The position numbers were made by a program, and so were the translations under genes. From positions 434,001-498,000 of the forward strand of contig JAFEDS010000016.1 of NCBI GenBank assembly GCA_018241505.1: a stretch of DNA of 64,000 bases. The letters run 5' to 3'. Positions within the stretch are counted from its first letter, which is position 1; every line of letters starts with the position of its first letter. The notes below the pieces were generated by a model. It made no database searches. It was not told the DNA's origin and saw nothing but the letters and a program-made list of their open reading frames with translations. Origin of the DNA: Pseudomonadota bacterium (GTDB taxonomy: Bacteria; Pseudomonadota; Gammaproteobacteria; Steroidobacterales; Steroidobacteraceae). Shown here in pieces: positions 12,910 to 26,979 of the stretch.

Positions 12910-13365
12910 ATGATCCTGTTGTATCTGAATGACACGGAGCAGCGCTTCGAAGGCAGCCCCCAGATGCCGCTGCTTTGGTTCCTCCGCGACGTAGTCGGCC
13001 TGACCGGCACCAAGTTCGGCTGCGGCATGGGCCTGTGCGGAGCTTGTACGGTGCACATCGACGGAAGTGCGGTCCGCAGTTGTGTCACACCGGTTGCCGC
13101 TGCTGCCGGGCGCAAGCTCACGACCATCGAAGGGCTCTCGCCAGTCGCCACGCACCCCCTGCAACAGGCTTGGCGAGAGCTCAACGTCGCTCAATGCGGG
13201 TACTGCCAGCCCGGCCAGATCATGCAGGCAGCATCGCTGCTAAATGACAATCCCCATCCGACTGAAGCTGAGATTGACGCAGCGATGAGCGGCAACATCT
13301 GCCGCTGCGGGACTTATACGCGCATCCGTGCGGCGATCAAGCAGGCTGCGGAAACCGCGCTGTGA
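12910..13365 (+). CDS. (2Fe-2S) small subunit of a xanthine oxidase-family molybdenum hydroxylase
   Basis: This 151-residue protein carries two [2Fe-2S] clusters. The plant-ferredoxin-type site uses Cys38, Cys43, Cys46 and Cys58 (CGMGLCGACTVHIDG). The second site uses Cys96, Cys99, Cys131 and Cys133 (CGYCQPGQ and CRCGTY). This is the IorA/CoxS type of small subunit. Its stop overlaps the GTG start of the large subunit by 4 bp, so the two are made together. The gene is divergent from the sulfite-oxidase-like gene, with a 149-bp shared promoter region between them. Confidence 0.94.
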   Translation: MILLYLNDTEQRFEGSPQMPLLWFLRDVVGLTGTKFGCGMGLCGACTVHIDGSAVRSCVTPVAAAAGRKLTTIEGLSPVATHPLQQAWRELNVAQCGYCQPGQIMQAASLLNDNPHPTEAEIDAAMSGNICRCGTYTRIRAAIKQAAETAL

Positions 13366-15704
13366 GCGTCAGAAACGCAAGCCGCCGTGCGTTTGTGTTG
13401 GGACTTGGAGCCGGCAGCCTCGTGCTCGCGCTCGCCCCTGGCTTCCTGAACGCGCAAGAAGCCAAGAAATATGGCGGCGATGCCATCCCAAATGGTACGC
13501 GCGACGATCCACGCGTGTTCATAGCTATCGCTGAAGATGGCACCGTAACGATAGTCTGCCACCGCTCCGAAATGGGCCAGGGCGTGCGCACGAGCATCGC
13601 GATGGTCATTGCGGATGAGCTGGAAGCCGATTGGAGCCGAGTGAAAGTAGTACAGGCACCCGGTGATGAAGCACGCTTCGGCAATCAGAACACCATTGCT
13701 TCGCGGAGCTTGCGGCACGGATTTGCTCCGTTGCGCCGGGCCGGGGCCGCAGCACGCAGGATGCTCGAGGCCGCAGCAGCAGCCAGTTGGTCAGTACCAC
13801 TCAGCGAGGTGAAAGCGCAGAACCATAGCGTTGTCCACGCCAGCACCGCCCGCCGCCTGGACTACGGCGCGCTTGCCAAACGCGCATCCGAACAACCTGT
13901 ACCGCCTGTCAGCCAGCTCAAACTCAAACAGCCAGAGGAATTCCGTTACATCGGCCGCGCGCAAACAAAACCCATCGATGATGTCGATATCGTGCGCGGC
14001 AGCGCACACTATGGCATCGATACGCGCCTGGACGGAATGCTCTATGCGGTCATTGCGCGGCCACCGGTCTATGGCGGCAAAGTCGCCTGGTTCAATGCTA
14101 GTGAGAGCCGAAAGGTGCCCGGCGTGCTCGAGGTGTTCACGCTGTACAGCCCGCCCATCCCGGTAGGCACCCAGCCACTGGGCGGCGTCGTCGTTGTAGC
14201 AAACAACACCTGGGCCGCGATCAAGGGTCGCGAACGGCTCGAGATCCACTGGGATGATGGGATCAACGCGAATTACGACTCATCCAACTATCGCACGGAG
14301 TTGGAATCGTCTGCACGCAACTCGGGCGTCGTGGTTCGAGATGAAGGCGATTTCGACGAGGCGCTGACTGGCGCCGCGCAACGCGTGACTGCGGAATACT
14401 ACATTCCGCACCTCTCGCATGCACCAATGGAGCCACCGTGCGCAGTTGCTCGAGTGGCCGACGGCAACTGCGAAGTCTGGGCCTGCACGCAGGATCCACA
14501 ATCCGCGCGCAATCTATTGGTGAAGCTGCTGGGTCTGCCGATCGAACGAGTGACAGTGAACGTCACGCTCCTGGGTGGCGGCTTCGGCCGCAAGTCGCGC
14601 CCCGATTTCGTCGCCGAGGCTGCATTGGTGTCGCGGACGATGGCCGGCAAACCGGTCAAGCTGACCTGGACCCGTGAGGACGATCTGGTCAACGACTACT
14701 TTCACACAGTATCGGTTGAGCATCTACAGGCGGGACTCGATGCGTCTCGCAAGACCGTGGCCTGGCTGCATCGGACGGTGGCACCCACCATCGCATCCCT
14801 GGGGGCAGCCCACGATCCTCAGCACGAGTTGGCGTTCGAGCTGGGAATGGGTGTAACCGACTTGCCGTTCGCGATCCCGAACATCCGGCTGGAGAATCCG
14901 GCGGCCGCCGCCCACACGCGCATCAGTTGGTTTCGCGGCGTCAACAACATTCCGCACGCGTTCGCCATCCAGTCGTTCGTCGCCGAGCTGGCTGCCGCCG
15001 CAGGCCGCGACCACAAGGATTTCCTGCTCGAGCTGCTTGGGCCGCCGCGCACAATCGATCCGGCCGCACTAGGAGACAAGAACAATACCGGTGAGGACCC
15101 GAACATCTATCCGGTCGACGTTGGGCGTTGGCGCCGCGTGATCGAAACGGTGGCAAAGAAAGCCGGCTGGGGTCGCACATTGCCGCAGGGACAAGGACTG
15201 GGAATCGCTGCGCACCGTTGCGAGCTATCCTATGCGGCAATCGTGGTTGAAGTACACATCGGCACGGATGGCAAGCTGGTCATACCTCGCGTCGACATCG
15301 CTGTTGATTGTGGTCCGCAAGTGAATCCCGAGCGGGTGAGAGCGCAGATGGAGAGTGGCGTCGTCTGGGGTATCTCGCTTGCAATGCTGGGGGAGATCAC
15401 CTTTAAGAAAGGCCGCGCACAGCAGACCAACTTTCACCAATACCGGGTAGCCCGGAATACTGAGGCGCCGCGCGAGATCCACGTTCATCCGGTCGCGGCG
15501 GATGACTTCACTCGGCCTCTGAGCGGCGTCGGCGAAGTGGGTGTCCCGCCAGTGGCCCCTGCATTGGCCAACGCCATTTTCGCGGCGACCGGCCGGCGGC
15601 TGCGAGCGCTGCCCTTCGGCGACACTATCAGCACCACACTCAACACAACAACCAAGCACGCCAACAGCGAGCGGAGCGTGACGATTTCGCCGGCGCCGAA
15701 ATAG
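13362..15704 (+). CDS. Molybdopterin-binding large subunit, isoquinoline 1-oxidoreductase/aldehyde oxidase family
   Basis: This 780-residue catalytic subunit resembles IorB and the membrane-anchored aldehyde dehydrogenases that pass electrons to cytochrome c. The start is GTG, overlapping the small-subunit stop. A Tat-type signal (ASRRAFVLGLGAGSLVLALAPG) exports it, with the small subunit presumably piggybacking. Molybdopterin segments are visible: EMGQGVRTSIAMVIADEL, LLGGGFGRKSRPDF and GEVGVPPVAPALANAIFAATGRRLRALPF. Family members end near that last motif. Here about 28 further residues follow, which lie antisense inside the EamA gene. The product probably hydroxylates an aldehyde or N-heterocycle. 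The substrate is not deducible. Confidence 0.9.
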   Translation: MSVRNASRRAFVLGLGAGSLVLALAPGFLNAQEAKKYGGDAIPNGTRDDPRVFIAIAEDGTVTIVCHRSEMGQGVRTSIAMVIADELEADWSRVKVVQAPGDEARFGNQNTIASRSLRHGFAPLRRAGAAARRMLEAAAAASWSVPLSEVKAQNHSVVHASTARRLDYGALAKRASEQPVPPVSQLKLKQPEEFRYIGRAQTKPIDDVDIVRGSAHYGIDTRLDGMLYAVIARPPVYGGKVAWFNASESRKVPGVLEVFTLYSPPIPVGTQPLGGVVVVANNTWAAIKGRERLEIHWDDGINANYDSSNYRTELESSARNSGVVVRDEGDFDEALTGAAQRVTAEYYIPHLSHAPMEPPCAVARVADGNCEVWACTQDPQSARNLLVKLLGLPIERVTVNVTLLGGGFGRKSRPDFVAEAALVSRTMAGKPVKLTWTREDDLVNDYFHTVSVEHLQAGLDASRKTVAWLHRTVAPTIASLGAAHDPQHELAFELGMGVTDLPFAIPNIRLENPAAAAHTRISWFRGVNNIPHAFAIQSFVAELAAAAGRDHKDFLLELLGPPRTIDPAALGDKNNTGEDPNIYPVDVGRWRRVIETVAKKAGWGRTLPQGQGLGIAAHRCELSYAAIVVEVHIGTDGKLVIPRVDIAVDCGPQVNPERVRAQMESGVVWGISLAMLGEITFKKGRAQQTNFHQYRVARNTEAPREIHVHPVAADDFTRPLSGVGEVGVPPVAPALANAIFAATGRRLRALPFGDTISTTLNTTTKHANSERSVTISPAPK

Positions 15705-16575: not shown

Positions 16576-17181
16576 GTGCCTCCCCCTTTTCAACTCCTGG
16601 CATCGCACCCTGCGCTCGACTTTGTAAACACGCTCGATAACCGGTTTGTTGATTCGGGACCCAGCGAGCTGCTGCCTCGCTATGCGGATCTGTTGGCGTT
16701 CGTTGAGCAAACGGCTTTGGTGAGCACTCGTGCGGTGAACGGCTTGACCGACCGCGCCGATTCCCCACGTGCCAGGAAAGTTCTCGCGCAAGCACACACA
16801 CTCAGGGAAGCGTTGGCGGCCGTTGTGTACGCGTCCGCGGCTACCGCAGATTCAATGTCAGTTTTGGAAACGGCTTGCAAAGCTGCTCAGCAGCACCAGG
16901 AGCTGGAGTGGAAGCGCAACGGCACTACCGATGGGTCTGCGTGGCAGGCAGGCTGGAAATGGGGCCGCTCCGAGACCGAGCTGGAGCTGCCGGTCTGGGC
17001 CCTGGCGAAATCCGCAATGGAATTACTGACATCGCCCGTTGTACAGCACGTGCGAACGTGCAAGAGCGACACCTGCCGCTGGGTGTTTCTGGACACGAGC
17101 AAGAATCACTCGCGCCGTTGGTGCGATATGAAGATCTGCGGCAACCGAATGAAAGCGCGCCGCTTTCAGGCGCGCCAGTGA
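16576..17181 (+). CDS. CGNR zinc-finger (ABATE-domain) putative transcriptional regulator
   Basis: This 201-residue protein has an N-terminal ABATE-type stress domain (HPALDFVNTLDNR, then a helical middle) and a C-terminal CGNR zinc finger (CKSDTCRWVFLDTSKN, then WCDMKICGNRMKARR, about residues 160-196). The four cysteines and the CGNR box are all present, so zinc binding and DNA contact are plausible. The start is a GTG at 16576 with GGAG 7 nt upstream. An ATG at 16563 is out of frame. It is divergent from the EamA exporter, a common pairing for this family. Its 3' end overlaps the convergent LysR gene by 16 bp. Confidence 0.88.
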   Translation: MPPPFQLLASHPALDFVNTLDNRFVDSGPSELLPRYADLLAFVEQTALVSTRAVNGLTDRADSPRARKVLAQAHTLREALAAVVYASAATADSMSVLETACKAAQQHQELEWKRNGTTDGSAWQAGWKWGRSETELELPVWALAKSAMELLTSPVVQHVRTCKSDTCRWVFLDTSKNHSRRWCDMKICGNRMKARRFQARQ

Positions 17182-18062
17182 GCGACTTCACCGAGTAGCC
17201 AATCTCGAAAAGCGCGCACGCCCGGGAGATCGGCCTTCTCCTCGGGATACACGAGGTAATAGGCGTGGTTGCTGCACACCGGCCGGTCAAAGGGGATGAT
17301 GAGCCGTCCCGCGGCGATTTCGTCTTCCACCAGGAACCGCGGCAGCACGGCGACGCCTATTCCGGCAATCGCGGCCTGGATCACCATTGAGAAGTGCTCG
17401 AATCGCGGACCTTTCAAGCCGTTGATTTGCGGCTGGCCCACGGCGGCGAACCATTCAACCCACGCGTTGGGGCGAGTGGTGTGTTGCAGAAGAGTGTGGT
17501 GCTCGAAGTCCTCGAGAGAAGTCAGCGCGTGGGCGCGAAGCGCCGCCGCCGAACATACTGGAACGACCTCCTCGCCCATCAGCCGATGCGACTTCACACC
17601 GGGCCAGGTCACATCGCCGAAATGGATGGCCGCATCCAGACGCTCCTTGGCGAAATCGAAAGCAACAGCGCGGGTGGTGAAATTGACAACAATGTTGGGA
17701 TGAGCGCGCGCGAACGACGCCATGCGGGGAATCAACCACTTTGTGCCGAATGTTGGCAGGATCGCCAGGTTGAGCACGCCACCGGTGCCCTGGTGAGCCA
17801 GCAACTCCAGCGTCGCGGCCTCGAGTCGTGACAGGCACGCGCGCACCTCGGGCAGGTACGCCGAACCAGCTTCGCTCAAAGTCAGCCGGTTACGCACACG
17901 ATGGAAGAGTTGCAAGCCGAGTGTCTCCTCGAGCGCACGAATCTGCCGGCTGACAGCGCCTTGCGTCAGATTCATCTCGGCGGCGGCGTCTGAAAACGAC
18001 AAGCGCCGGGCCGCCGCCTCAAATACCAAGAGGCTCGTCATCGAGGGCAATAGCCGGCGCAA
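17166..18062 (-). CDS. LysR-family (GcvA-like) regulator, divergent from the aminomutase operon
   Basis: This 298-residue regulator begins RRLLPSMTSLLVFEAAARRLSFSDAAAEMNLTQGAVSRQIRALEE, the N-terminus and helix-turn-helix of the GcvA-type subgroup. A substrate-binding domain follows (GVLNLAILPTFGTKWLIPRM). I chose TTG at 18062 because GGAGG lies 4 nt upstream and the protein then begins where GcvA homologues do. A GTG at 18092 would add 10 residues with no ribosome-binding site. It is read away from the aminomutase operon, with 170 bp between the starts, the classic LysR arrangement. I infer that it senses the amino acid that this operon degrades. Confidence 0.88.
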   Translation of the reverse strand: MRRLLPSMTSLLVFEAAARRLSFSDAAAEMNLTQGAVSRQIRALEETLGLQLFHRVRNRLTLSEAGSAYLPEVRACLSRLEAATLELLAHQGTGGVLNLAILPTFGTKWLIPRMASFARAHPNIVVNFTTRAVAFDFAKERLDAAIHFGDVTWPGVKSHRLMGEEVVPVCSAAALRAHALTSLEDFEHHTLLQHTTRPNAWVEWFAAVGQPQINGLKGPRFEHFSMVIQAAIAGIGVAVLPRFLVEDEIAAGRLIIPFDRPVCSNHAYYLVYPEEKADLPGVRAFRDWLLGEVAHWRA

Positions 18063-18136
18063 GGTGCCTCCTTTTTTCGCCAACTCTATCACGGTCAGCG
18101 CCTGGGAAGCCCGGTGCGCGGCGGCGGCGCCAGGTA

Positions 18137-18232: not shown

Positions 18233-19645
18233 ATGGCTGCGGTCGTGTCAGACCCGGTTGTCAATCAACCTTCCGCCAAGGCCCAGGAGTTTCTGGCGGG
18301 TGTCCAGAACGGCAAATACAACCGCCAGATCATCACGGGGCTCGGCAAGTTCATGGAGGGAACTGCACCCGAGGACATGCAGTTGCTGTATTCGGCGCAG
18401 GAGCTGCAAGCCCTTGGGGCCCTGAAAGGGACTCACAGGGACGTGGAGGCGCGCATGCCCGTCAAGGTCACGCGCCACTACTTTGAGCTGGCGAAGCAGA
18501 GTGCGCCGTTGCGAACGCTGGTGAAGGCGAGTCCGAGGGAGACCGAGGATCTCGCGGGTGCGCCGGATCCGGGTAAGCAGATGGACTACAGCCCGGTCGA
18601 AGGGCTGATCCACAAGTACGAGCTCGGTCTGATTTATGTCGCGTCCACGTGCTCAGCCCACTGCCGGTTCTGCTACCGCGAAGAGCTCATCGCGCGAAAG
18701 GAAGTACAACGTCCCGACGGAACTGTTGCCCCGAAGGGTCTGGCTGAGATCGGTGCCATCGTCAACTATATACGCGAGCACAACGCGCAGGTTGCGCGCA
18801 ACGGCGGCCGTCATCCACAGACCAACCGCGAACGGCTCCGCGAGATTCTGATGTCAGGTGGCGATCCCATGGTGCTCTCCAACAAGAACATTGCGGCCTG
18901 GTGGTCGGCTTTGGCGGAGGCGGGAATCGAAAATATCCGCCTTGGCACCAAGGAGCTCGCGTTCTTCCCCGAACGTTTTGACGAGACGTTCTTCGACATG
19001 CTCGACCGGTTTCATGCGGCCTACCCGGGAACCCGGATTCGCCTGATGGTGCATTTCAACCATCCGGACGAGTTCCTCAAAAAGGACGGCCAGGGAGCCT
19101 ACCTGGACGATCCGCGCGGCGGGCTGCAGTGGATCGAGACGACGCAGCGCGCGATTCAAGAGCTCGGCAAGCGCGAGTGGCTGACCATCGACAACCAGGC
19201 GCCCATCATCAACGGCATCAACAACGATCCCGCGGTGCTGAGAATCATGCAACGCGAGCTGCGGCGTAACCGCGTTGAGAATCATTACTTCTTCTGCGGG
19301 CGCGACATCATCGGCCACAAAGCCTTCAATGTGCCCATTGAAGAGGCCTGGCGAGTTCTCAACGAGTCACAAAAGGGGCTCTCGGGTGTGGAGACACACG
19401 CCCGCTTGTCCATCACCCACTACAAAGGAAAAACGGAAGTTGCCGCGGTGACCACTCAACCGCTCGCCGGCGTCCCGGGCACCGAAAACGGCTTCGTGGT
19501 CCTGAAGCTGCTCCGTAACGCCGCTGACGCACCCGATCGCGGCAAAGTCACCATTGTGGCACGCAATCCCGAGGCAATCTGGTTCAGTGGCTATGACGAT
19601 CGGGTGATTTACGATGAGGCCGGCCTGTTCGGCGGGGCTCCGTGA
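18233..19645 (+). CDS. KamA-family radical SAM aminomutase, probably not lysine-specific
   Basis: This 470-residue enzyme belongs to the lysine 2,3-aminomutase family, which uses a [4Fe-4S] cluster, S-adenosylmethionine and PLP to move an alpha-amino group to the beta carbon. The cluster motif is Cys140-x3-Cys144-x2-Cys147 (CSAHCRFC), followed by MSGGDP and the HFNHPDE strand. Lys399 in HYKGKTEV lines up with the PLP lysine (Lys337 of the clostridial enzyme). Against the clostridial sequence as I recall it, the two aspartates that bind the lysine side-chain amine (Asp293, Asp330) align with Arg356 and Ser392/Ile393. Glutamate 2,3-aminomutase also replaces both. Start ATG 18233 has GAGG 5 nt upstream. 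The gene overlaps the CoA-transferase gene by 4 bp. Confidence 0.88.
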   Translation: MAAVVSDPVVNQPSAKAQEFLAGVQNGKYNRQIITGLGKFMEGTAPEDMQLLYSAQELQALGALKGTHRDVEARMPVKVTRHYFELAKQSAPLRTLVKASPRETEDLAGAPDPGKQMDYSPVEGLIHKYELGLIYVASTCSAHCRFCYREELIARKEVQRPDGTVAPKGLAEIGAIVNYIREHNAQVARNGGRHPQTNRERLREILMSGGDPMVLSNKNIAAWWSALAEAGIENIRLGTKELAFFPERFDETFFDMLDRFHAAYPGTRIRLMVHFNHPDEFLKKDGQGAYLDDPRGGLQWIETTQRAIQELGKREWLTIDNQAPIINGINNDPAVLRIMQRELRRNRVENHYFFCGRDIIGHKAFNVPIEEAWRVLNESQKGLSGVETHARLSITHYKGKTEVAAVTTQPLAGVPGTENGFVVLKLLRNAADAPDRGKVTIVARNPEAIWFSGYDDRVIYDEAGLFGGAP

Positions 19646-20352
19646 TCGACAAACGTTTCGGGTCCGCTGCCGATGCCGTCGCTGATATTCACGACGGCGC
19701 AACCGTACTCATCGGCGGCTTCGGTGAAGCGGGCAGTCCGATTGAGTTGATTCACGCACTGATTGACCAGGGCGCCACCGGGCTCACGGTGGTGAACAAC
19801 AATACTGGCAGCGGGCATGTGGGCCTCGCCGCACTCATCGAGCACGGCCGGGTCGCCCGAATGATCTGCTCCTATCCCCGCACCGGCAACTCCACAGTAT
19901 TTCAAGACAAGTACACCAAAGGAGAAGTTGCCCTGGAGCTCGTCCCACAGGGTACGCTCGCCGAGCGCATACGCGCCGGCGGGGCAGGTATTCCGGCTTT
20001 CTACACGCGGACGTCAGTCAACACGAGTCTTGCGCAGGGAAAGGAACTGCGCACCCTCTCCGGCGTCGAGTACGTTCTCGAATTCGCACTTAGAGCCGAT
20101 TTCGCGCTGATCAAGTGCTCGCGCTGCGATCGCTATGGAAATCTCGTTTACAACAAGACTGCCCGCAACTTCGCTCCGATCATGGCCACCGCGGCCAGAA
20201 CGACCATTGTTCAAACGGCGACCTATCTAGAAGCCGGTCAGCTCGATCCGGAAGCGATCGTGACGCCTGGCATCTACGTCGACCGGATCGTTACGGTTGC
20301 CGAGCCGTTACAGGAGTCCGCGTTGGTCGCAGCAGGAACGGTGTATCCATGA
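19642..20352 (+). CDS. CoA-transferase subunit A, 3-oxoadipate (PcaI)-like
   Basis: This 236-residue protein is the alpha subunit of a class I CoA-transferase. It opens ADIHDGATVLIGGFGEAGSP and has LIHALIDQGATGLTVVNNNTG, FQDKYTKGEVALELVPQGTLAERIRAGGAGIPAFYTRT, and KTARNFAPIMATAA. These track the protocatechuate-pathway PcaI subunit more closely than the acetoacetate-type AtoD. The GTG start overlaps the aminomutase stop by 4 bp, and its own stop overlaps the beta subunit ATG by 4 bp. No other aromatic-degradation gene is nearby, so its role is better explained by the amino acid operon: activating a beta-keto acid as its CoA ester. Confidence 0.9.
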   Translation: MIDKRFGSAADAVADIHDGATVLIGGFGEAGSPIELIHALIDQGATGLTVVNNNTGSGHVGLAALIEHGRVARMICSYPRTGNSTVFQDKYTKGEVALELVPQGTLAERIRAGGAGIPAFYTRTSVNTSLAQGKELRTLSGVEYVLEFALRADFALIKCSRCDRYGNLVYNKTARNFAPIMATAARTTIVQTATYLEAGQLDPEAIVTPGIYVDRIVTVAEPLQESALVAAGTVYP

Positions 20353-21017
20353 TTGGCTGGGACCGCGACCAGATCGCCCGCAACATTGCCAACGACATCC
20401 CGGAAGGGGCGATCGTCAACCTGGGCGTGGGTCTGCCTGAGAAGGTGGTCGACTTCATTCCTACAAACCGCGAAGTCCTCTTTCATACAGAGAACGGCTT
20501 GCTGGGAATGGGCCCCTCTCCCGCCGCCGGTCAAAGCGATCCCGAGCTCATCAACGCGGGAAAGAAGCGGGTGACCGCAATCGCAGGGGCTGCGTATTTC
20601 CATCACGCCGACAGCTTTGCCATGATCCGCGGAGGCCACATCGATGTCTGCGTACTCGGCGCGATGCAGGTTTCCGAGGCCGGCGATCTTGCGAACTGGT
20701 CCATGGGCGACGGCGACGCGGCTCCCGCGGTCGGCGGAGCCATGGATCTGGTTGCGGGCGTGAAAACCATCCTCGTCGCAACCACTCACTGCACGAAAAC
20801 AGGCGACAGCAAGCTGCTGCAGGTCTGCACACTGCCCCTGACAGGCCGCGGTGTGGTTCGCCGCGTTTACACCGACCTGGCTACCATCAACATCGGGCCC
20901 CGAGGTTTCGAGGTACAACAGATGGCGCCCGGAGTCGACCGGCAATACCTACAGCAGAGAACTGCCGCCCCCCTGCATTTTCCCATAAAGCCTCCCCAGG
21001 GAACTGAACCATGGTGA
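20349..21017 (+). CDS. CoA-transferase subunit B, 3-oxoadipate (PcaJ)-like
   Basis: This 222-residue beta subunit has the catalytic glutamate Glu48 in FHTENGLLGMGPSP. Further family motifs are FHHADSFAMIRGGHIDVCVLGAMQVS, DLANWSMGD, AVGGAMDLVAGVK and RRVYTDLA. The MGPSP after the catalytic glutamate and the GGHID region match PcaJ. The ATG at 20349 overlaps the alpha-subunit stop. A longer frame to 20115 lies inside the alpha subunit and is rejected. The tail is slightly extended (about 20 residues after the usual end) and overlaps the aminotransferase start by 7 bp. Succinyl-CoA is the likely CoA donor, as known for PcaIJ. Confidence 0.9.
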   Translation: MIGWDRDQIARNIANDIPEGAIVNLGVGLPEKVVDFIPTNREVLFHTENGLLGMGPSPAAGQSDPELINAGKKRVTAIAGAAYFHHADSFAMIRGGHIDVCVLGAMQVSEAGDLANWSMGDGDAAPAVGGAMDLVAGVKTILVATTHCTKTGDSKLLQVCTLPLTGRGVVRRVYTDLATINIGPRGFEVQQMAPGVDRQYLQQRTAAPLHFPIKPPQGTEPW

Positions 21018-22306
21018 ACACGAATAGCGCCGCACTGTATGAGCGTGCGCTGAAAGTCATGCCGGGCGGTTGCAGTCGCAACGCGGTAATCAAAAAACCT
21101 CACCCGCTGTACGCAGCCCACGGAGAGGGATGCTACCTGACCGACATCGAGGGCAACCGGCGCATCGACTTTTCAAACAACATGGGCTCGCTGATTCACG
21201 GCCATGCCTGTTCCGCGGTCATCCAGGCGGTGGAAGCGCAAATGCGGCGCGGCACCGCCTACATGATGGCAACCGAAGCCGAGGTTGAATACGCGGAATT
21301 TCTGTGCGGGCGGGCGCCGAGTTTCGAGAAGGTCCGCTTCCTCAACTCCGGAACCGAAGCCGTCATGTGCGCAATCAAGGTGGCACGTGCGTTCACCGGA
21401 CGGCCGATGATTGCGAAGGTCGAGGGCGCGTACCACGGACTGTACGATTACGTGGAAGTGAGCGAATCGGCCCAGCCGGCGAATTGGGGCAATCTCGACG
21501 AACCCAACTCCGTTCCGGTCGCTCAGGGCACGCCCGCTTCCGCACTGGCCGAAGTGGTTGTGATTCCTTTCAACGATGTGAATCGGGCCATCGCCCTGCT
21601 CGAGAAACACGCCAGTCAACTGGCGTGCGTCCTCATAGACCTGATGCCGCACCGCGTGGGTCTCATGCCTGCGGACCCGGGTTTTGTCAGGGCACTGCGC
21701 GAGTGGACGCGTAAGCACGGCGCTCTGCTGATTTTCGATGAGGTCATCACGTTCCGAACCACCTACACAGGCGCGCAGGGCAACTACGGTGTGCAACCCG
21801 ATCTGACGGCGTTGGGAAAGATCATCGGTGGCGGTTTCCCGGTAGGCGCTGTGGCAGGAAGAAGTGAGGTGATGAGTGTGCTCGATCCGTCATCCGGGAA
21901 GGCACTCGTGCCACACTCAGGCACTTTCAATGCCAACCCGGTAACAATGGTGGCGGGCCGCGCCGCAATGACAGCGTTCGATGAGGCCGCGGTCACGCGA
22001 CTGAATCGTCTGGGCGAGCTCGCTCGTGAACAGCTTCGTGAAGTGATCCAACAGGCAGGCGTGCCCGCTTGCGTAACGGGCATAGGATCTGTGTTTCGCA
22101 TCCACTTCAAGCCCGTGCCACCTCGAAATCACCGCGAGGCCTTCGTTGCGCCCGCTGAACGCGCACGGCAGCAGGCCTTCCTGAGCTATCTGCTCCAGAA
22201 CCAGGTCTTGCTGATTGAAACCTGCAGTGGAATGCTCTCAACCGCGATGACGGAAAGAGAAATTGAAATCCTGGGGACGGCGGTTCTGGGCGGTCTGCGT
22301 AGTTAA
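21011..22306 (+). CDS. Class III aminotransferase, beta-amino acid transaminase-like
   Basis: This 431-residue PLP enzyme lies in the glutamate-1-semialdehyde/beta-phenylalanine aminotransferase branch of class III. The PLP lysine is Lys270 (LGKIIGGG), the pyridine-binding acid is Asp243 (IFDEV), and the phosphate-cup motif is NSGTEA. The N-terminal VMPGGCSRNAV places Arg23 where the Variovorax beta-phenylalanine transaminase, as I recall it, has Arg41, the residue that grips the beta-carboxylate. A hemL role is unlikely because the GSA-type N-terminal N-S-P-V-R motif is absent and the context is catabolic. It is the last gene of the aminomutase operon, where it would convert the beta-amino acid into a beta-keto acid. 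Its end overlaps the convergent fecR gene by 4 bp. Confidence 0.87.
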   Translation: MVNTNSAALYERALKVMPGGCSRNAVIKKPHPLYAAHGEGCYLTDIEGNRRIDFSNNMGSLIHGHACSAVIQAVEAQMRRGTAYMMATEAEVEYAEFLCGRAPSFEKVRFLNSGTEAVMCAIKVARAFTGRPMIAKVEGAYHGLYDYVEVSESAQPANWGNLDEPNSVPVAQGTPASALAEVVVIPFNDVNRAIALLEKHASQLACVLIDLMPHRVGLMPADPGFVRALREWTRKHGALLIFDEVITFRTTYTGAQGNYGVQPDLTALGKIIGGGFPVGAVAGRSEVMSVLDPSSGKALVPHSGTFNANPVTMVAGRAAMTAFDEAAVTRLNRLGELAREQLREVIQQAGVPACVTGIGSVFRIHFKPVPPRNHREAFVAPAERARQQAFLSYLLQNQVLLIETCSGMLSTAMTEREIEILGTAVLGGLRS

Positions 22307-23286
22307 TTCCTACGCGAAGCCACCAGGACAGTATCACCCTGCCGGGTCACTGAAACGGGGAAACCTTGCTCCAATAGCCGTACAAACCCAACCGCATTGG
22401 TCGCAGCAAAGGTGCCGTCGATCTTCAGTGCCGCCACTGTGGAATCAGTGACGCGAATCTGCACGGTGTTATATCGATTGAGCTCCTCGGCCACGCTGCT
22501 CAAAGGTTCTCCGGCGAAGATCAGAAGCCCTCTGTCCCAGGCGAGACGGGCCGCTACCGCCCCCGGAGGAAGATTCGAAATGTGCACGCCCGTCGAGGTC
22601 ATCACGGCGCCCTGCCCGGCTCGCACACGGGCTCCCGCGTCATTACCCCGATGAACCGAGTCTTCCAAACTGACGATGCCCTCTGCAACATACACGTCGG
22701 TCTGCTGCGCACGCGTACGGACGGAGAAATCGGTGCCCACAGCCCTGACACGATCGGTGGCCACGGTCACCACGAACGGGCGTTGCGGATCCTTTGCCAC
22801 ATGGAAGCGAGCCTCACCCTGCAGCAAGCGGATTCCTCGCACACTCGAATCAAACACGACTTCAATGTCGGTCTGAGTGTTGAGCTCCAGAGTGGAGCCG
22901 TCGGAAAGCGTCTCGCGCATATATCCACCCACCGGCGTCGAGAAGGCGATGACACGAGGTTTGACCCGGCCGGCCTGCCACCAGACCGTGAGGGCTATCG
23001 CGACCAGCACGACAGCCGCGGCGGCGCCCCAACGCGGCCAGTTCCGAGTCGTCGTCGCTTGCTGGGTACCGGAGATTTCACGCTGCGCATTCTCGTACGA
23101 GCCGAGCGCGGCGATCCGATTCAATTGCCGCCAGGCGGCGCGCAAACGCAGGTAAGCCACTTCGCGCCGCGGATCGCCGGACAACCAACTCTCCAATTCC
23201 GCGCGCACGGCCGGATTCTCCGGCTCGGCATCCTGGCGCGCGAGCAGCGCGGCCGCCTGTTCTTCAATTTCGTTGGCTACACTCAT
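22303..23286 (-). CDS. FecR-family anti-sigma factor / sensor
   Basis: This 327-residue inner-membrane regulator has an N-terminal cytoplasmic DUF4880-type anti-sigma domain (ALLARQDAEP...LESWLSGDPRREVAYLRLRAAW), one transmembrane helix (AAAAVVLVAIALTVWW, about residues 89-104), and a periplasmic FecR domain (YMRETLSDGSTLELNTQTDIEVVFD, LLQGEARFHVAKD, AVGTDFSVRT). A C-terminal STN-like region follows (LNRYNTVQIRVTDSTVAALKIDGTF). It should hold the adjacent sigma factor inactive until the divergent TonB receptor reports ligand. It overlaps the sigma gene by 4 bp. Confidence 0.92.
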   Translation of the reverse strand: MSVANEIEEQAAALLARQDAEPENPAVRAELESWLSGDPRREVAYLRLRAAWRQLNRIAALGSYENAQREISGTQQATTTRNWPRWGAAAAVVLVAIALTVWWQAGRVKPRVIAFSTPVGGYMRETLSDGSTLELNTQTDIEVVFDSSVRGIRLLQGEARFHVAKDPQRPFVVTVATDRVRAVGTDFSVRTRAQQTDVYVAEGIVSLEDSVHRGNDAGARVRAGQGAVMTSTGVHISNLPPGAVAARLAWDRGLLIFAGEPLSSVAEELNRYNTVQIRVTDSTVAALKIDGTFAATNAVGFVRLLEQGFPVSVTRQGDTVLVASRRN

Positions 23287-23870
23287 TGCTCATCCACATC
23301 CCTACTGGACGGCCCACCGGCCAACTCGGCCGGAACCTCGCTGGTGACATCCCCAGAACCCCTGAACAGGGCATGGGCACAGATGCGCACCCCCTTCGCA
23401 ACCTGCTTCTGCACAGTGGCTTCCGCAATCCGCAAGCGCTCCGCGACTTCGCGCTGCGACAATCCATCGATCTTCCGGAGCAAAAACACGTCCCGGCAGC
23501 GCGGCGGCAGCGCCGCGATGGCCTGGATCACCACGCCGAGTAGATTTCGGCCAATCGCGGTCTGCTCAGGTCCGGGCTCCGGCGAGGAGAAATGCAGGTA
23601 TTCTGTTTCGGAAACCGGAATGAAGGGCACGACCCGGCGCGAGCGTAAATGATCAATGGCGACATGATGGGTGGTCTTCAACAAGAAGGCGCGTGGATAC
23701 AGGATGGTATCGCGGCGCGCCGCTTCGAGAACCTTTACATAAGCCTGTTGCAACAAGTCCTCGACCTCGTCGGGATCGTTGCAAAAGCGCGTCAACAGCC
23801 TCACGGCAGCCCGCTCGTGGGGCAACACGCGCGATTCAAACCAAGCTGCTGCATCGTTGTCGTTCGCCAC
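23283..23870 (-). CDS. FecI-type ECF sigma factor
   Basis: This ECF sigma factor of about 195 residues has region 2 (LLTRFCNDPDEVEDLLQQAYVKVLEAARR... FLLKTTHHVAIDHLRSRR) and region 4 (AIAALPPRCRDVFLLRKIDGLSQREVAERLRIAEATVQKQVAKG), the FecI layout. The frame is open 109 codons further upstream, through the divergent receptor gene. The best start is GTG at 23870, giving a short leader before WFESRVLPHERAA. No clear ribosome-binding site supports it. It overlaps fecR by 4 bp and should drive transcription of the divergent receptor. Confidence 0.87.
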   Translation of the reverse strand: MANDNDAAAWFESRVLPHERAAVRLLTRFCNDPDEVEDLLQQAYVKVLEAARRDTILYPRAFLLKTTHHVAIDHLRSRRVVPFIPVSETEYLHFSSPEPGPEQTAIGRNLLGVVIQAIAALPPRCRDVFLLRKIDGLSQREVAERLRIAEATVQKQVAKGVRICAHALFRGSGDVTSEVPAELAGGPSSRDVDEQ

Positions 23871-26800
23871 ACTGCAAACTAACGCGCCGCCAGTCCAGGC
23901 GCAACTCGCGCGCGGCCTGTGCCTCTGGCTGGTTGTTGTTTCAGCTCTCCAGTTGGGGATACCCGCGGCGTGTGCCGCCACGACTGCCCGGACGTGGCGT
24001 TTCGCGATTCCCCGCGAAGAAGCCGTAGAAGCCCTGCATGACTTCAGCACCCAGTCGGGCGTGCAAACCCTGTCGCCCTCGGAAGACCTGCGGGGGCTGT
24101 CGTTGGGCCCGCTCGCCGGCGAATTTACAGTCACCGAGGCTCTCGAACGACTGCTCCAGGGAAGCGGGTTGTCGGCGCGACGTGATCCTTCAGGCATCTA
24201 CCTGATAGCCCGTACCAAACCGCCTGCAGGACCCCGCCAGGCGCCTCGTCAACCCGGCGCCGACACCACTCCACCTCCAGTTGTTGCCGCGGCGGTGCCC
24301 GTCGAGACAGTCACCATCACGGGCAGCTACATCCGGCGAACCAATCTCGAGACACCCTCCCCCGTTCAGACCATCACGGCGGGTGAGATAGAACAACGCA
24401 ATGTCGTGAGTCTCGCTGACGCGGTCCGAGCGCTGCCGGCAGACAACAGCGGAACTCTGCCCCAAGCCTTCAGCGGCGCCATCGCCGGCGGGGCTTCTGC
24501 GGTGTCGCTACGTGGAATGACCGTCGATGCCACCCTTGTACTGGTGGATGGACACAGGATGGCTCCGTACCCACTTGCCGATGACGGGCAGCGGCCGTTC
24601 GTCGACCTCGCCTCGCTGCCGCTCAGCCTCGTCGATCGTGTCGAAATTCTCAAGGACGGCGCCTCATCGGTCTACGGCTCGGACGCGATCGCCGGCGTGG
24701 TAAACATTCTCCTCAAGAAGACATTCACCGGCCTGGACACCGCCGTGGGTGCAGGCATCTCCACCCGGGGCGATGGCATCCAGGAGCGTATGGCCTTCAC
24801 CTACGGCTTCGGCGATCTGGTCGACGACGGTTACAACACCTATATCAACGTTGAATACCGGCATCAGGATGCGATCGGCCAGAACAGCCGTGGCTCCTAC
24901 CTCGATAACCTGGACCTGCGCAATCGCGGGGGCAGTGACCTGCGGCAGGGCATCGTGCTGCAGCCGGCACCCAACAATTTCGCGTTCACGACGCCGGGCA
25001 TGGTGGCGCCCCTGAGCAATGGCTCGCAGGTCGGGTCGTTTTACCTGCTGCCGGGCTGCGCCGCCCAGGACCGGAACTATTCGGGTGGCTGTACCTGGGA
25101 CGCCAGCGCCTATCGCCAGATCCAGCCTCGTACCGCCGGGGTCACCCTGACCGTCAAACACAGTCAGCGCCTCGATGATGAATGGCAAGCCAGCTTGACG
25201 GCCTCGTTGTTCGACTCACGGGCCGAGCAGGTCAATAATCCGCCGACTCACGTTCCCAACACCTGGGTGGGGGCGGCATCGGGACAGCTCGTGGACCAGC
25301 GCAATCCGGCCACGACGCCCATCCTCCTGGGGCCCTCCCATCCGGACAATCCGTTCAACCCGGCGAGTCCCTACTACGCTGCGGCGGCCGCCTACTATGG
25401 GGCAGCGTTTGGCCAATTTGCCCACAATCCGGCCCTGTTGTATCTGTCGCTGACAGACCTCGGACCGCAGCACAGTTTCTATCGCACGGATGTCGCCAGG
25501 GTTGTCGCCGATCTGACCGGCAGCGCGGGCGAATGGGATTTGACCGGGGCGTTGGGATATGTGAAGGCAGCCACTCGGATCACCTACCGCGGCTTCGTGC
25601 GTGCCAGTGCTCTGAGCGCAGCCCTTGCCAACAACACGTACCGCATTGGCGCAAACTCTTACCTCAACTCCGCGAGCCTGAATGCGCAGCTTGCCCCTGA
25701 AACCTCCGACACAGCCACCTCGTCGCTGGCGTTTCTCAGCATGAATGCCACGCGGCCGCTGTTGGCATTGGCAGGCGGGCCTTTGCGAGTCGCGCTGGGT
25801 GCCGAATTCCACTATCTCACTGCCAACAACCCGGGACAGCCCTATGCCATCGCGGGAGACATCATCAACGCTGGAGGCTCGTATGCCCGCGGCACGCAGG
25901 CGGTTTCGGCCGGCCACCTGGAGCTCTCCGCCCCGATCACTTCCGCGTTGGAGCTGGACGCCGCCGGCCGGGTGGACTACTACAATGATTCGGGCACCTC
26001 TCTCACACCCAAAGTGGGTTTCAAATGGAGCCTGCTGCCGGCGCTGGCCCTTCGCGCCACCTATGCCCGCGGATTTCGAGCTCCCGGTCCGGCGGAAAAT
26101 GGCGATGGCTCGACGGGAACCGTCACCACCGCGCCCATCGACCCATTGCGCTGTCCGTTTACACGGCTTCCCACTGACTGCGGTCAGACCACGGTCGCCG
26201 TTCTGAGTCGAACCAACCCGAGCCTGCGGCCGGAAACTTCGCAAAGTTATACGGTGGGCGCGGCGTGGACGGCGGCCGGGCACCACCTCTCCCTGGATTA
26301 CTTTCACATCCAACGGGACAACGAGATCATCGCGCAGCCGCTGGGGCAGGCCACGCCGGTGCGCGGCGCGCAGCAGCCCGGCACGAGTTTTCCCGGCCCC
26401 ATCATCTATTACGATGATCCTTATCAAAACGCCTCCTCATCGCAGACCGCGGGGTTCGATGCGGATGGGCAATTCCAACAGTCATTTGGCTCCGCCGGCG
26501 CCCTCACCCTCGGTGCCGCATCGACTTGGCTGCTGCGCTCACGACAGGAGGTGGCGGGAGCCGTCTACAATTTCGCAGGCACAGCGGGGCCTACTGCAGT
26601 AGGCGCCGCGGTAGGTACACCGCGTACGCGAGCAACCTTCAAACTCGAATGGGAAAAGAGGGATTTTTCCCTGGGAAGCTTCGTGAACTACCACAGCGCC
26701 GTGAAGGCGGTGGACGAATCCACCTCCGGTCCGGGTGTATGCCTGCAGCTTTGGGCCGGCAATCCGCATTGCTATGTGGCTTCATTCACGACTGCGGATT

Positions 26801-26979
26801 TCTTCGCCCGCTACAGCTTGTCATCGCAGCTACAACTCACCGTCACCCTCAACAATGCGTTCAATCGGCTGGCGCCCCTGGATACCGCGACCTACGGCGG
26901 ACAAAACTACAATCCGTCACTCGATCAGGCAGGCGCGGTCGGCCGCTACTTGAGTCTACAGTTACACTACCGCCGCTAG
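23857..26979 (+). CDS. TonB-dependent receptor with STN signalling domain (FecA-type transducer)
   Basis: This outer-membrane receptor of about 1040 residues has a signal segment (GLCLWLVVVSALQLGIPAACA) and then an STN domain (FAIPREEAVEALHDFSTQSGVQTLS...ALERLLQGSGLSARRDPSGIYLI), the part that contacts FecR. A Pro-rich linker, a plug (VTITGSYIRR, VSLRGMTVDATLVLVDGHRMAPYP, VEILKDGASSVYGSDAIAGVVNILLKK) and a long barrel ending LSLQLHYRR follow. The plug resembles receptors for plant-type or peptide/carbohydrate substrates more than siderophore receptors. No ATG precedes the signal segment: TTG 23779, TTG 23857 and CTG 23872 are the in-frame choices. I give 23857. With either TTG the gene overlaps the divergent sigma gene start. 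Confidence 0.88.
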   Translation: MSFATLQTNAPPVQAQLARGLCLWLVVVSALQLGIPAACAATTARTWRFAIPREEAVEALHDFSTQSGVQTLSPSEDLRGLSLGPLAGEFTVTEALERLLQGSGLSARRDPSGIYLIARTKPPAGPRQAPRQPGADTTPPPVVAAAVPVETVTITGSYIRRTNLETPSPVQTITAGEIEQRNVVSLADAVRALPADNSGTLPQAFSGAIAGGASAVSLRGMTVDATLVLVDGHRMAPYPLADDGQRPFVDLASLPLSLVDRVEILKDGASSVYGSDAIAGVVNILLKKTFTGLDTAVGAGISTRGDGIQERMAFTYGFGDLVDDGYNTYINVEYRHQDAIGQNSRGSYLDNLDLRNRGGSDLRQGIVLQPAPNNFAFTTPGMVAPLSNGSQVGSFYLLPGCAAQDRNYSGGCTWDASAYRQIQPRTAGVTLTVKHSQRLDDEWQASLTASLFDSRAEQVNNPPTHVPNTWVGAASGQLVDQRNPATTPILLGPSHPDNPFNPASPYYAAAAAYYGAAFGQFAHNPALLYLSLTDLGPQHSFYRTDVARVVADLTGSAGEWDLTGALGYVKAATRITYRGFVRASALSAALANNTYRIGANSYLNSASLNAQLAPETSDTATSSLAFLSMNATRPLLALAGGPLRVALGAEFHYLTANNPGQPYAIAGDIINAGGSYARGTQAVSAGHLELSAPITSALELDAAGRVDYYNDSGTSLTPKVGFKWSLLPALALRATYARGFRAPGPAENGDGSTGTVTTAPIDPLRCPFTRLPTDCGQTTVAVLSRTNPSLRPETSQSYTVGAAWTAAGHHLSLDYFHIQRDNEIIAQPLGQATPVRGAQQPGTSFPGPIIYYDDPYQNASSSQTAGFDADGQFQQSFGSAGALTLGAASTWLLRSRQEVAGAVYNFAGTAGPTAVGAAVGTPRTRATFKLEWEKRDFSLGSFVNYHSAVKAVDESTSGPGVCLQLWAGNPHCYVASFTTADFFARYSLSSQLQLTVTLNNAFNRLAPLDTATYGGQNYNPSLDQAGAVGRYLSLQLHYRR

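Follow-up and report, generated by a model that had tools for sequence, protein, structure and literature searches.

Four genes packed head to tail in a 64,000-nt stretch of a Steroidobacteraceae genome (assembly GCA_018241505.1, contig JAFEDS010000016.1, positions 434,001 to 498,000 of the forward strand; hereafter, the window) appear to form a catabolic module for L-2-aminoadipate derived from lysine, a computational reading to which we assign a probability of roughly 0.73. The genes encode a divergent KamA-like radical S-adenosylmethionine (SAM) aminomutase (gene 1), the two subunits of a 3-oxoacid coenzyme A (CoA)-transferase (genes 2 and 3, here coaA and coaB), and a class III aminotransferase (gene 4). 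An earlier reading made from the letters of the window (the sequence-only reading) had described four genes of these families overlapping by 4, 4, and 7 bp, and our open frames and family scans agree with it. It had also arranged the families into a line of chemistry from alpha-amino acid to beta-amino acid, beta-keto acid, and beta-ketoacyl-CoA, ready for a thiolase, and this line is supported by gene content and by residues.

We infer each reaction step from the families and catalytic residues that we observed. Upstream of the module, lysine would be oxidized at C6 to 2-aminoadipate by saccharopine- or lysine-dehydrogenase-like enzymes together with L-piperidine-6-carboxylate (P6C) dehydrogenase, both of which are encoded in the window's genome. 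The KamA-like enzyme, which would use radical SAM chemistry and pyridoxal phosphate (PLP), would shift the C2 amino group to C3, converting 2-aminoadipate to 3-aminoadipate, and the aminotransferase would pass this group on to a 2-oxo acid, leaving 3-oxoadipate. As its family suggests, the CoA-transferase would then form 3-oxoadipyl-CoA, with the CoA probably drawn from succinyl-CoA, and the thiolase PcaF, encoded elsewhere in the window's genome and beside the set in others, would release acetyl-CoA and succinyl-CoA. Such a route would bypass 2-oxoadipate and glutaryl-CoA and would lose no carbon as CO2. If this is true, all six carbons of 2-aminoadipate enter central metabolism as succinyl-CoA and acetyl-CoA by radical chemistry, and lysine breakdown is linked to the closing reactions of the beta-ketoadipate pathway. 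We also consider it likely that bacteria of many phyla carry out a complete, carbon-conserving degradation of lysine through a new radical SAM 2-aminoadipate 2,3-aminomutase.

We searched genome_contigs for relatives of gene 1 with a four-sequence profile and kept the best 80 of at least 523 loci, which together with the window and one further locus (L032) constitute the 82-locus set; the 82 loci are not all independent species, since L087 and L102 apparently come from the same genomes as G063 and G066. Neighboring genes were grouped by all-against-all BLAST, and a gene was counted as near if it lay within 4.5 kb of the KamA-like gene. The complete four-gene set was near in 48 of the 82 loci, a CoA-transferase subunit in 52, an aminotransferase in 63 (a broad group, with members in L033 and L034 only 33 to 36% identical to that of the window), and one or the other partner in 65. 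Among the loci that have 3.5 kb or more of downstream sequence (63 in all), the four genes were present together in 38 and either partner in 50. The KamA-like proteins of the best 80 loci are 63 to 78% identical to that of the window over the best segment and the gene order recurs among them; therefore, the four-gene arrangement is not due to chance. The sequence-only reading had suggested looking for the same set in other genomes and had held that a lack of conservation among relatives would count against it, and these data indicate that the genes are conserved together.

Phylum labels among the best 80 of at least 523 loci include Proteobacteria, Planctomycetota, Actinomycetota, Acidobacteriota, Bacteroidota, Gemmatimonadota, Chloroflexi, Verrucomicrobia-type groups, and Krumholzibacteriia; most of these loci come from metagenome-assembled genomes, whose taxon labels may be wrong. 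Isolates are represented by Zongyanglinia huanghaiensis, Sneathiella chungangensis, Mesorhizobium camelthorni, and Colwellia hornerae. Among the carriers are marine and soil groups that are generally considered aerobic. Gene 1 is rare and patchy: at E ≤ 1e-100, it was detected only in the window's own genome among 299 sampled in its phylum, and in 8 of 246 sampled genomes of the planctomycete phylum that contains locus L083 (Phycisphaerales label). Some genomes carry the parts of the module at separate sites. Two Colwellia genomes with a lone KamA-like gene have a coaA-coaB-aminotransferase-pcaF cluster elsewhere (L143, L144), and in a further genome coaA, coaB, and pcaF stand together away from the KamA-like gene (L145). 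FdxA-type ferredoxin genes occur in 8 of the 82 loci, directly after the KamA-like gene in 7 (by BLAST grouping, with one gene scored), an arrangement that would suit the electron need of a radical SAM enzyme.

The best NCBIfam match of gene 1 was the glutamate 2,3-aminomutase model TIGR04368 (94.5 bits, cut-off 650); the KamA family model TIGR00238 gave 91.2 bits (cut-off 199.2), the lysine 2,3-aminomutase model gave 77.2 bits (cut-off 525.4), and no Pfam family matched at E 0.001. The assignment to the KamA family in the sequence-only reading thus holds for a remote member, a distance from characterized aminomutases on which that reading was silent. A single PDB entry matched gene 1 (phmmer, E 0.001), namely lysine 2,3-aminomutase (LAM; 2a5h, E 2.3e-14). 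The same structure was the best Foldseek match (E 1e-18, TM-scores 0.55 and 0.63, root mean square deviation 7.7 Å) of an AlphaFold2 model of gene 1 computed with 49 aligned sequences (mean predicted local distance difference test score, 87.6); for this predicted structure, the rank of the match is clear and its geometry loose.

Gene 1 has the radical-SAM CxxxCxxC motif and the PLP-binding lysine of the KamA superfamily. Cys125, Cys129, and Cys132 of LAM correspond to C140, C144, and C147, Arg134 to R149, and Asp293 to R357, and alignment with other KamA members places the PLP lysine (LAM Lys337) at K400 and Asp330 at S393. In LAM, Arg134 binds the carboxylate of the substrate, Lys337 holds PLP, and Asp293 and Asp330 hold the side-chain amine of lysine; we take these two numbers to be the amine-binding positions, which is consistent with the residue map. 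The cysteines, R149, and K400 are invariant in all 82 sequences. Both lysine-amine-binding Asp residues are missing from gene 1, with Arg357 at the first position in 82 of 82 sequences and Ser393 at the second in 81 of 82, and the Lys/Asn pair of glutamate 2,3-aminomutase is also missing, replaced by this Arg and Ser. A family-profile hidden Markov model search of the PDB left the Asp293 region unaligned, and the assignment of Asp293 to R357 rests on sequence alignments. According to an excerpt of PMC3965090, glutamate 2,3-aminomutase has Lys and Asn in place of the lysine-binding Asp residues, a replacement associated with glutamate binding. Given this precedent, the basic R357 suggests a substrate with a side-chain carboxylate.

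Other assignments of gene 1 were considered. A plain lysine 2,3-aminomutase or EpmB is disfavored by scores and residues, and an EpmB-type gene is present separately in the window's genome (L002; 440.6 bits, cut-off 369.3). Leucine, phenylalanine, and arginine are known aminomutase substrates; for gene 1, a diacid is more plausible in view of the invariant Arg and the PcaF context. A sister clade of KamA-like proteins (L006, L009, and L011), 26 to 28% identical to gene 1, also has Arg at the position of LAM Asp293, and its members L006 and L009 score below NCBIfam cut-offs.

Genes 2 and 3 exceed the cut-offs of TIGR02429 pcaI_scoA_fam (324 versus 128.5 bits) and TIGR02428 pcaJ_scoB_fam (281.6 versus 243.55 bits), respectively. 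Glu48 of gene 3, in a TENG motif, is present in 51 of 53 aligned rows (one gap, one G) and is presumably the catalytic Glu of CoA-transferase subunit B. Both models describe subfamilies of 3-oxoacid transferases in general, and it is the PcaF neighbors described below that suggest 3-oxoadipate as the substrate. Gene 4 matches Pfam Aminotran_3 (193 bits). Its best NCBIfam models are of the glutamate-1-semialdehyde-aminomutase type, and all 25 of the models shown score below their cut-offs. In the PDB, its closest relatives are 6k8h (411 bits) and ForI (6ssd, 359 bits), followed by glutamate-1-semialdehyde aminomutases and the beta-transaminases 4ao9 (beta-phenylalanine aminotransferase, 221 bits), 6iz9, and 2yku. 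Lys270, which we take to be the PLP-binding Lys, is present in 62 of 65 aligned rows, the other three being gaps. From these relatives, we propose that gene 4 encodes a beta-amino acid transaminase.

Genes beside the set bear on the identity of the substrate. A thiolase gene occurs in 19 of the 82 loci, no more than 418 bp from a gene of the set in 18 of them and at 4.8 kb in L089. We scanned 18 of the 19 thiolases, omitting that of L078, which is truncated at a contig end, as well as a short thiolase fragment in L101; 16 of the 18 match the PcaF model TIGR02430 at E ≤ 1e-150, and 15 of these 16 lie within 124 bp of the set. All three thiolases that were scored singly exceed the TIGR02430 cut-off of 597 bits. 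In L070, the KamA-like gene and the aminotransferase are followed by a beta-keto-acid cleavage enzyme (Pfam BKACE) that exceeds the cut-off of the NCBIfam model for 3-oxoadipate:acetyl-CoA acetyltransferase (NF053568, 477 bits, cut-off 350), and that genome has no PcaF at E ≤ 1e-165 and no coaB relative at E ≤ 1e-30, as if the acetyltransferase stood in for both transferase and thiolase.

The enzyme that forms 2-aminoadipate is also a neighbor. P6C dehydrogenase yields 2-aminoadipate and acts after the C6 amine of lysine is lost. Four loci carry a gene scoring above the NF050084 cut-off of 730 bits: in L050 (797.8 bits), it follows the aminotransferase at a distance of 43 bp; in L088 (765.4 bits), it follows the KamA-like gene at 25 bp; in L123 (736.2 bits), it adjoins the operon; and in L146 (827.5 bits), an Emcibacter genome in which the KamA-like gene stands alone elsewhere, it comes directly after coaA-coaB. 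Homologues are the next gene, with overlapping frames, in L091 and lie 1.3 kb from the thiolase in L063; the six loci together amount to fewer than six independent cases, as L050 and L063, and likewise L088 and L091, look like related organisms by their labels. Saccharopine-dehydrogenase-like genes lie 193 bp from the thiolase in L063 and 0.9 kb from the KamA-like gene in L092, and further off in L068 (3.2 kb, by BLAST only) and L051 (7.3 kb). An AlaDh/PNT-type gene 3.7 kb away in L043 presumably resembles lysine-ketoglutarate reductase. Taken together, the PcaF, 3-oxoadipate-cleaving, P6C dehydrogenase, and saccharopine-dehydrogenase-like neighbors point to 2-aminoadipate as the probable substrate. 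The sequence-only reading had offered two keto acids, 3-oxoadipate from 2-aminoadipate and 3-oxoglutarate from glutamate, and the PcaF, P6C dehydrogenase, and 3-oxoadipate cleavage genes favor the former.

We also asked how often the upstream enzyme occurs in genomes with gene 1, using 50 carrier genomes (G000, G049, G063, G066, and the genomes of 46 of the 80 loci, hand-picked and mostly on longer contigs) that were searched with NF050084 and TIGR02430. A P6C dehydrogenase above the NF050084 cut-off was detected in 32 of the 50 carriers versus 50 of the 298 further genomes sampled in the window's phylum. Because the carriers span many phyla, comparison within a phylum is the fairer test. Among the 246 genomes of the planctomycete phylum of L083, the enzyme was detected at E ≤ 1e-190 in 8 of 8 carriers versus 94 of 238 non-carriers (Fisher p 0.0007), and in 7 of 7 carriers when G128, the genome of L083 that had been chosen as a carrier, was removed (p 0.002, one-sided); by the curated cut-off, the counts were 7 of 8 versus 90 of 238 (p 0.007, one-sided), all of these tests ignoring relatedness. 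In the window's own genome, a saccharopine-dehydrogenase-like gene is paired with a P6C dehydrogenase gene at two sites (L126 and L127, with Pfam run on one), and a PcaF gene scoring 728 bits lies away from the operon.

Several observations weigh against 2-aminoadipate catabolism. Gene 1 is only remotely KamA-like and stands far from every characterized aminomutase, and the assignment of LAM Asp293 to R357 comes from sequence alignment at about 27% identity. Some of the scanned PcaF-like thiolases reach just 572 to 580 bits, below the cut-off of 597, and the thiolases of L074, L076, and L078 (the last unscanned) belong to a different type, only 34 to 36% identical to a PcaF-like one. Neither partner is near the KamA-like gene in 17 of the 82 loci; we searched the genomes of 12 of these 17 and found an aminotransferase relative elsewhere in 7 and none in 5 (E ≤ 1e-90). 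No P6C dehydrogenase above the cut-off was detected in 18 of the 50 carriers (three reach 704 to 722 bits and one has two partial matches, leaving 14), among them all three Colwellia searched, Sneathiella, and the genomes of L070, L101, L107, L108, L109, and L114. PcaF above the cut-off was absent from 26 of the 50 carriers, and from 21 at E ≤ 1e-165, a count made in carriers only. Carriers without one or the other enzyme may rely on different dehydrogenases and thiolases, or may act on a different substrate.

The main rival is the same chemistry applied to glutamate, which would pass through 3-aminoglutarate and 3-oxoglutarate to 3-oxoglutaryl-CoA, or to acetoacetate after decarboxylation. 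An Arg in place of LAM Asp293 would suit any acidic side chain, the highest-scoring NCBIfam model for gene 1, despite a score far short of its cut-off, is that of glutamate 2,3-aminomutase, and the many carriers without P6C dehydrogenase or PcaF above the cut-offs fit glutamate as well. However, C6 chemistry is common to all of the PcaF, P6C dehydrogenase, saccharopine-dehydrogenase-like, and 3-oxoadipate-cleaving neighbors, and gene 1 and P6C dehydrogenase co-occur in genomes; we regard glutamate as unlikely. A different order of the same steps, in which the CoA-transferase acts first to give 3-aminoadipyl-CoA and the aminotransferase works on the thioester as Kat does on 3-aminobutyryl-CoA, seems less likely still. 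Because Kat, the HemL-like aminotransferase of lysine fermentation, acts on thioesters only, as stated in an excerpt of PMC3149608, CoA transfer could come first. Against this order stands a single locus, L070, where a gene of a family that cleaves free 3-oxoadipate is found in a genome without a detectable coaB relative.

Two further explanations depart from 2-aminoadipate more widely, and we judge both very improbable. Gene 1 could make beta-lysine, which after transamination at C3, CoA transfer, and thiolysis would yield 4-aminobutyryl-CoA. Membership of the KamA superfamily and the structural match to 2a5h are in keeping with this, and lysine lies upstream in the favored pathway too, but both positions that bind the lysine amine are altered, one of them to an invariant Arg, P6C dehydrogenase acts once the C6 amine is gone, and PcaF, like the 3-oxoadipate enzyme, calls for a dicarboxylic acid. 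Alternatively, gene 1 could supply a beta-amino acid for another end, such as an osmolyte or antibiotic precursor, its neighbors being unrelated. Beta-amino acids formed by KamA enzymes do serve such ends in other organisms; the tight overlaps with CoA-transferase and aminotransferase genes, the adjoining thiolases, and the recurrence across phyla speak against it here. Overall, catabolism of 2-aminoadipate through 3-aminoadipate and 3-oxoadipate accounts best for the neighbors of gene 1, and formation of 3-aminoadipate is an enzyme activity that can be assayed directly.

The features of the window are collected in Table 1. The divergent LysR-type gene upstream is the probable regulator of the operon; among the 82 loci, 20 have a LysR gene and 26 an RpiR-type gene no more than 300 bp from the KamA-like gene.

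Table 1. The proposed 2-aminoadipate operon and its upstream regulator gene in the window
Feature	Position	Strand	Remarks
Gene 1, divergent KamA-like radical SAM aminomutase (proposed 2-aminoadipate 2,3-aminomutase)	18233..19645	+	in-frame ATG also at 18182
Gene 2 (coaA), 3-oxoacid CoA-transferase subunit A, PcaI/ScoA family	19642..20352	+	TIGR02429, 324 bits
Gene 3 (coaB), 3-oxoacid CoA-transferase subunit B, PcaJ/ScoB family	20349..21017	+	TIGR02428, 281.6 bits
Gene 4, class III aminotransferase (proposed 3-aminoadipate:2-oxo-acid transaminase)	21011..22306	+	Aminotran_3
Divergent GcvA-type LysR regulator gene	17166..18092	-	NF008352 GcvA, 316.9 bits, cut-off 288

About 2.5 kb upstream of the aminomutase, at 12910-15704, the window carries a hydroxylase pair with a 2Fe-2S and a molybdenum subunit, which we take to be isoquinoline-1-oxidoreductase-like; a similar pair lies upstream of the aminomutase in L051 (5065-7717). 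It is a speculative thought that this pair may oxidize the cyclic imine of lysine breakdown. Directly after the operon, at 22303-26979, are genes for a FecR-like anti-sigma factor and an extracytoplasmic function (ECF) sigma factor and a further frame, presumably TonB-dependent-receptor-like. In L101, L107, and L114, all from genomes listed above as having no P6C dehydrogenase over the cut-off, a branched-chain-type ATP-binding cassette transporter and binding protein precede the operon. A further gene of L101 and L107 is carbon-nitrogen hydrolase/DUF2848-like, as judged from family scans of L107 only.

Relatives also occur on plasmids. A conjugative plasmid of Mesorhizobium sp. 113-3-3 (L150, NZ_AP023244.1) encodes an aminomutase 71.8% identical to that of the window and annotated as a hypothetical protein, together with an FdxA ferredoxin, an aminotransferase, and a different CoA-transferase pair, with BREX genes a few kilobases away; this locus suggests horizontal spread and a swapped transferase. 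It was the only plasmid record with an aminomutase more than 60% identical. Plasmid pTM2 of Tistrella mobilis (L151, NC_017966.1) has no close aminomutase; it carries relatives of coaA (67% identical) and coaB (61% identical) close to a GcvA-type regulator, with a 2-oxoadipate dioxygenase/decarboxylase (HGLS) and a P6C-dehydrogenase-like gene nearby. If the proposed pathway is true, it gives a function to the KamA-like subfamily that the Mesorhizobium plasmid carries as a hypothetical protein.

Amino-acid catabolism is at its most diverse in a few cases, of which lysine is one, and nearly every route listed in an excerpt of PMC5653290 ends at glutaryl-CoA. Among the open-access papers listed by our searches, none describes, by title and abstract opening, a 2-aminoadipate aminomutase or such an operon, although a subscription paper or preprint may exist; what appeared there on 3-aminoadipate concerned meteorite amino acids and, in an excerpt of PMC9854754, a misprinted reference title. 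All of the enzyme superfamilies are known, and the aminomutase subfamily, the proposed substrate, and the pathway appear to be new.

Compared to L-lysine 2,3-aminomutase (KamA/AblA; 2a5h), gene 1 shares the CxxxCxxC motif, the counterparts of Arg134 (R149) and the PLP lysine Lys337 (K400), and the best fold match, but it has Arg and Ser for Asp293 and Asp330, insertions, and a different C-terminal part. It resembles glutamate 2,3-aminomutase (TIGR04368) in exchanging the Asp pair for a basic and a neutral residue (Lys/Asn in that enzyme, per the PMC3965090 excerpt; Arg/Ser in gene 1), whereas the neighbors of gene 1 belong to C6 rather than C5 acids. Lysine fermentation (KamA, KamDE, Kdd, Kce, Kal or Kat, AtoDA) likewise combines a radical 2,3-amino shift, a beta-keto acid, and a CoA-transferase or cleavage enzyme, and one variant uses a HemL-like aminotransferase (excerpt of PMC3149608). 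It differs from the proposed route in substrate and end products, and the four genes, the only ones in which we looked, include no KamDE, Kdd, or Kal. Known 2-aminoadipate catabolism, through 2-oxoadipate and then glutaryl-CoA or 2-hydroxyglutarate, has P6C dehydrogenase upstream in common with the proposed route, which would instead move the amino group before removing it and involve no 2-oxoadipate, glutaryl-CoA, or decarboxylation. Finally, the beta-ketoadipate pathway (PcaI, PcaJ, and PcaF) shares the CoA-transferase family and the PcaF-like thiolase found beside 16 scanned loci, and its last two steps would be the same as those proposed here; the difference is that 3-oxoadipate would come from an amino acid in this module and comes from an aromatic compound in that pathway.

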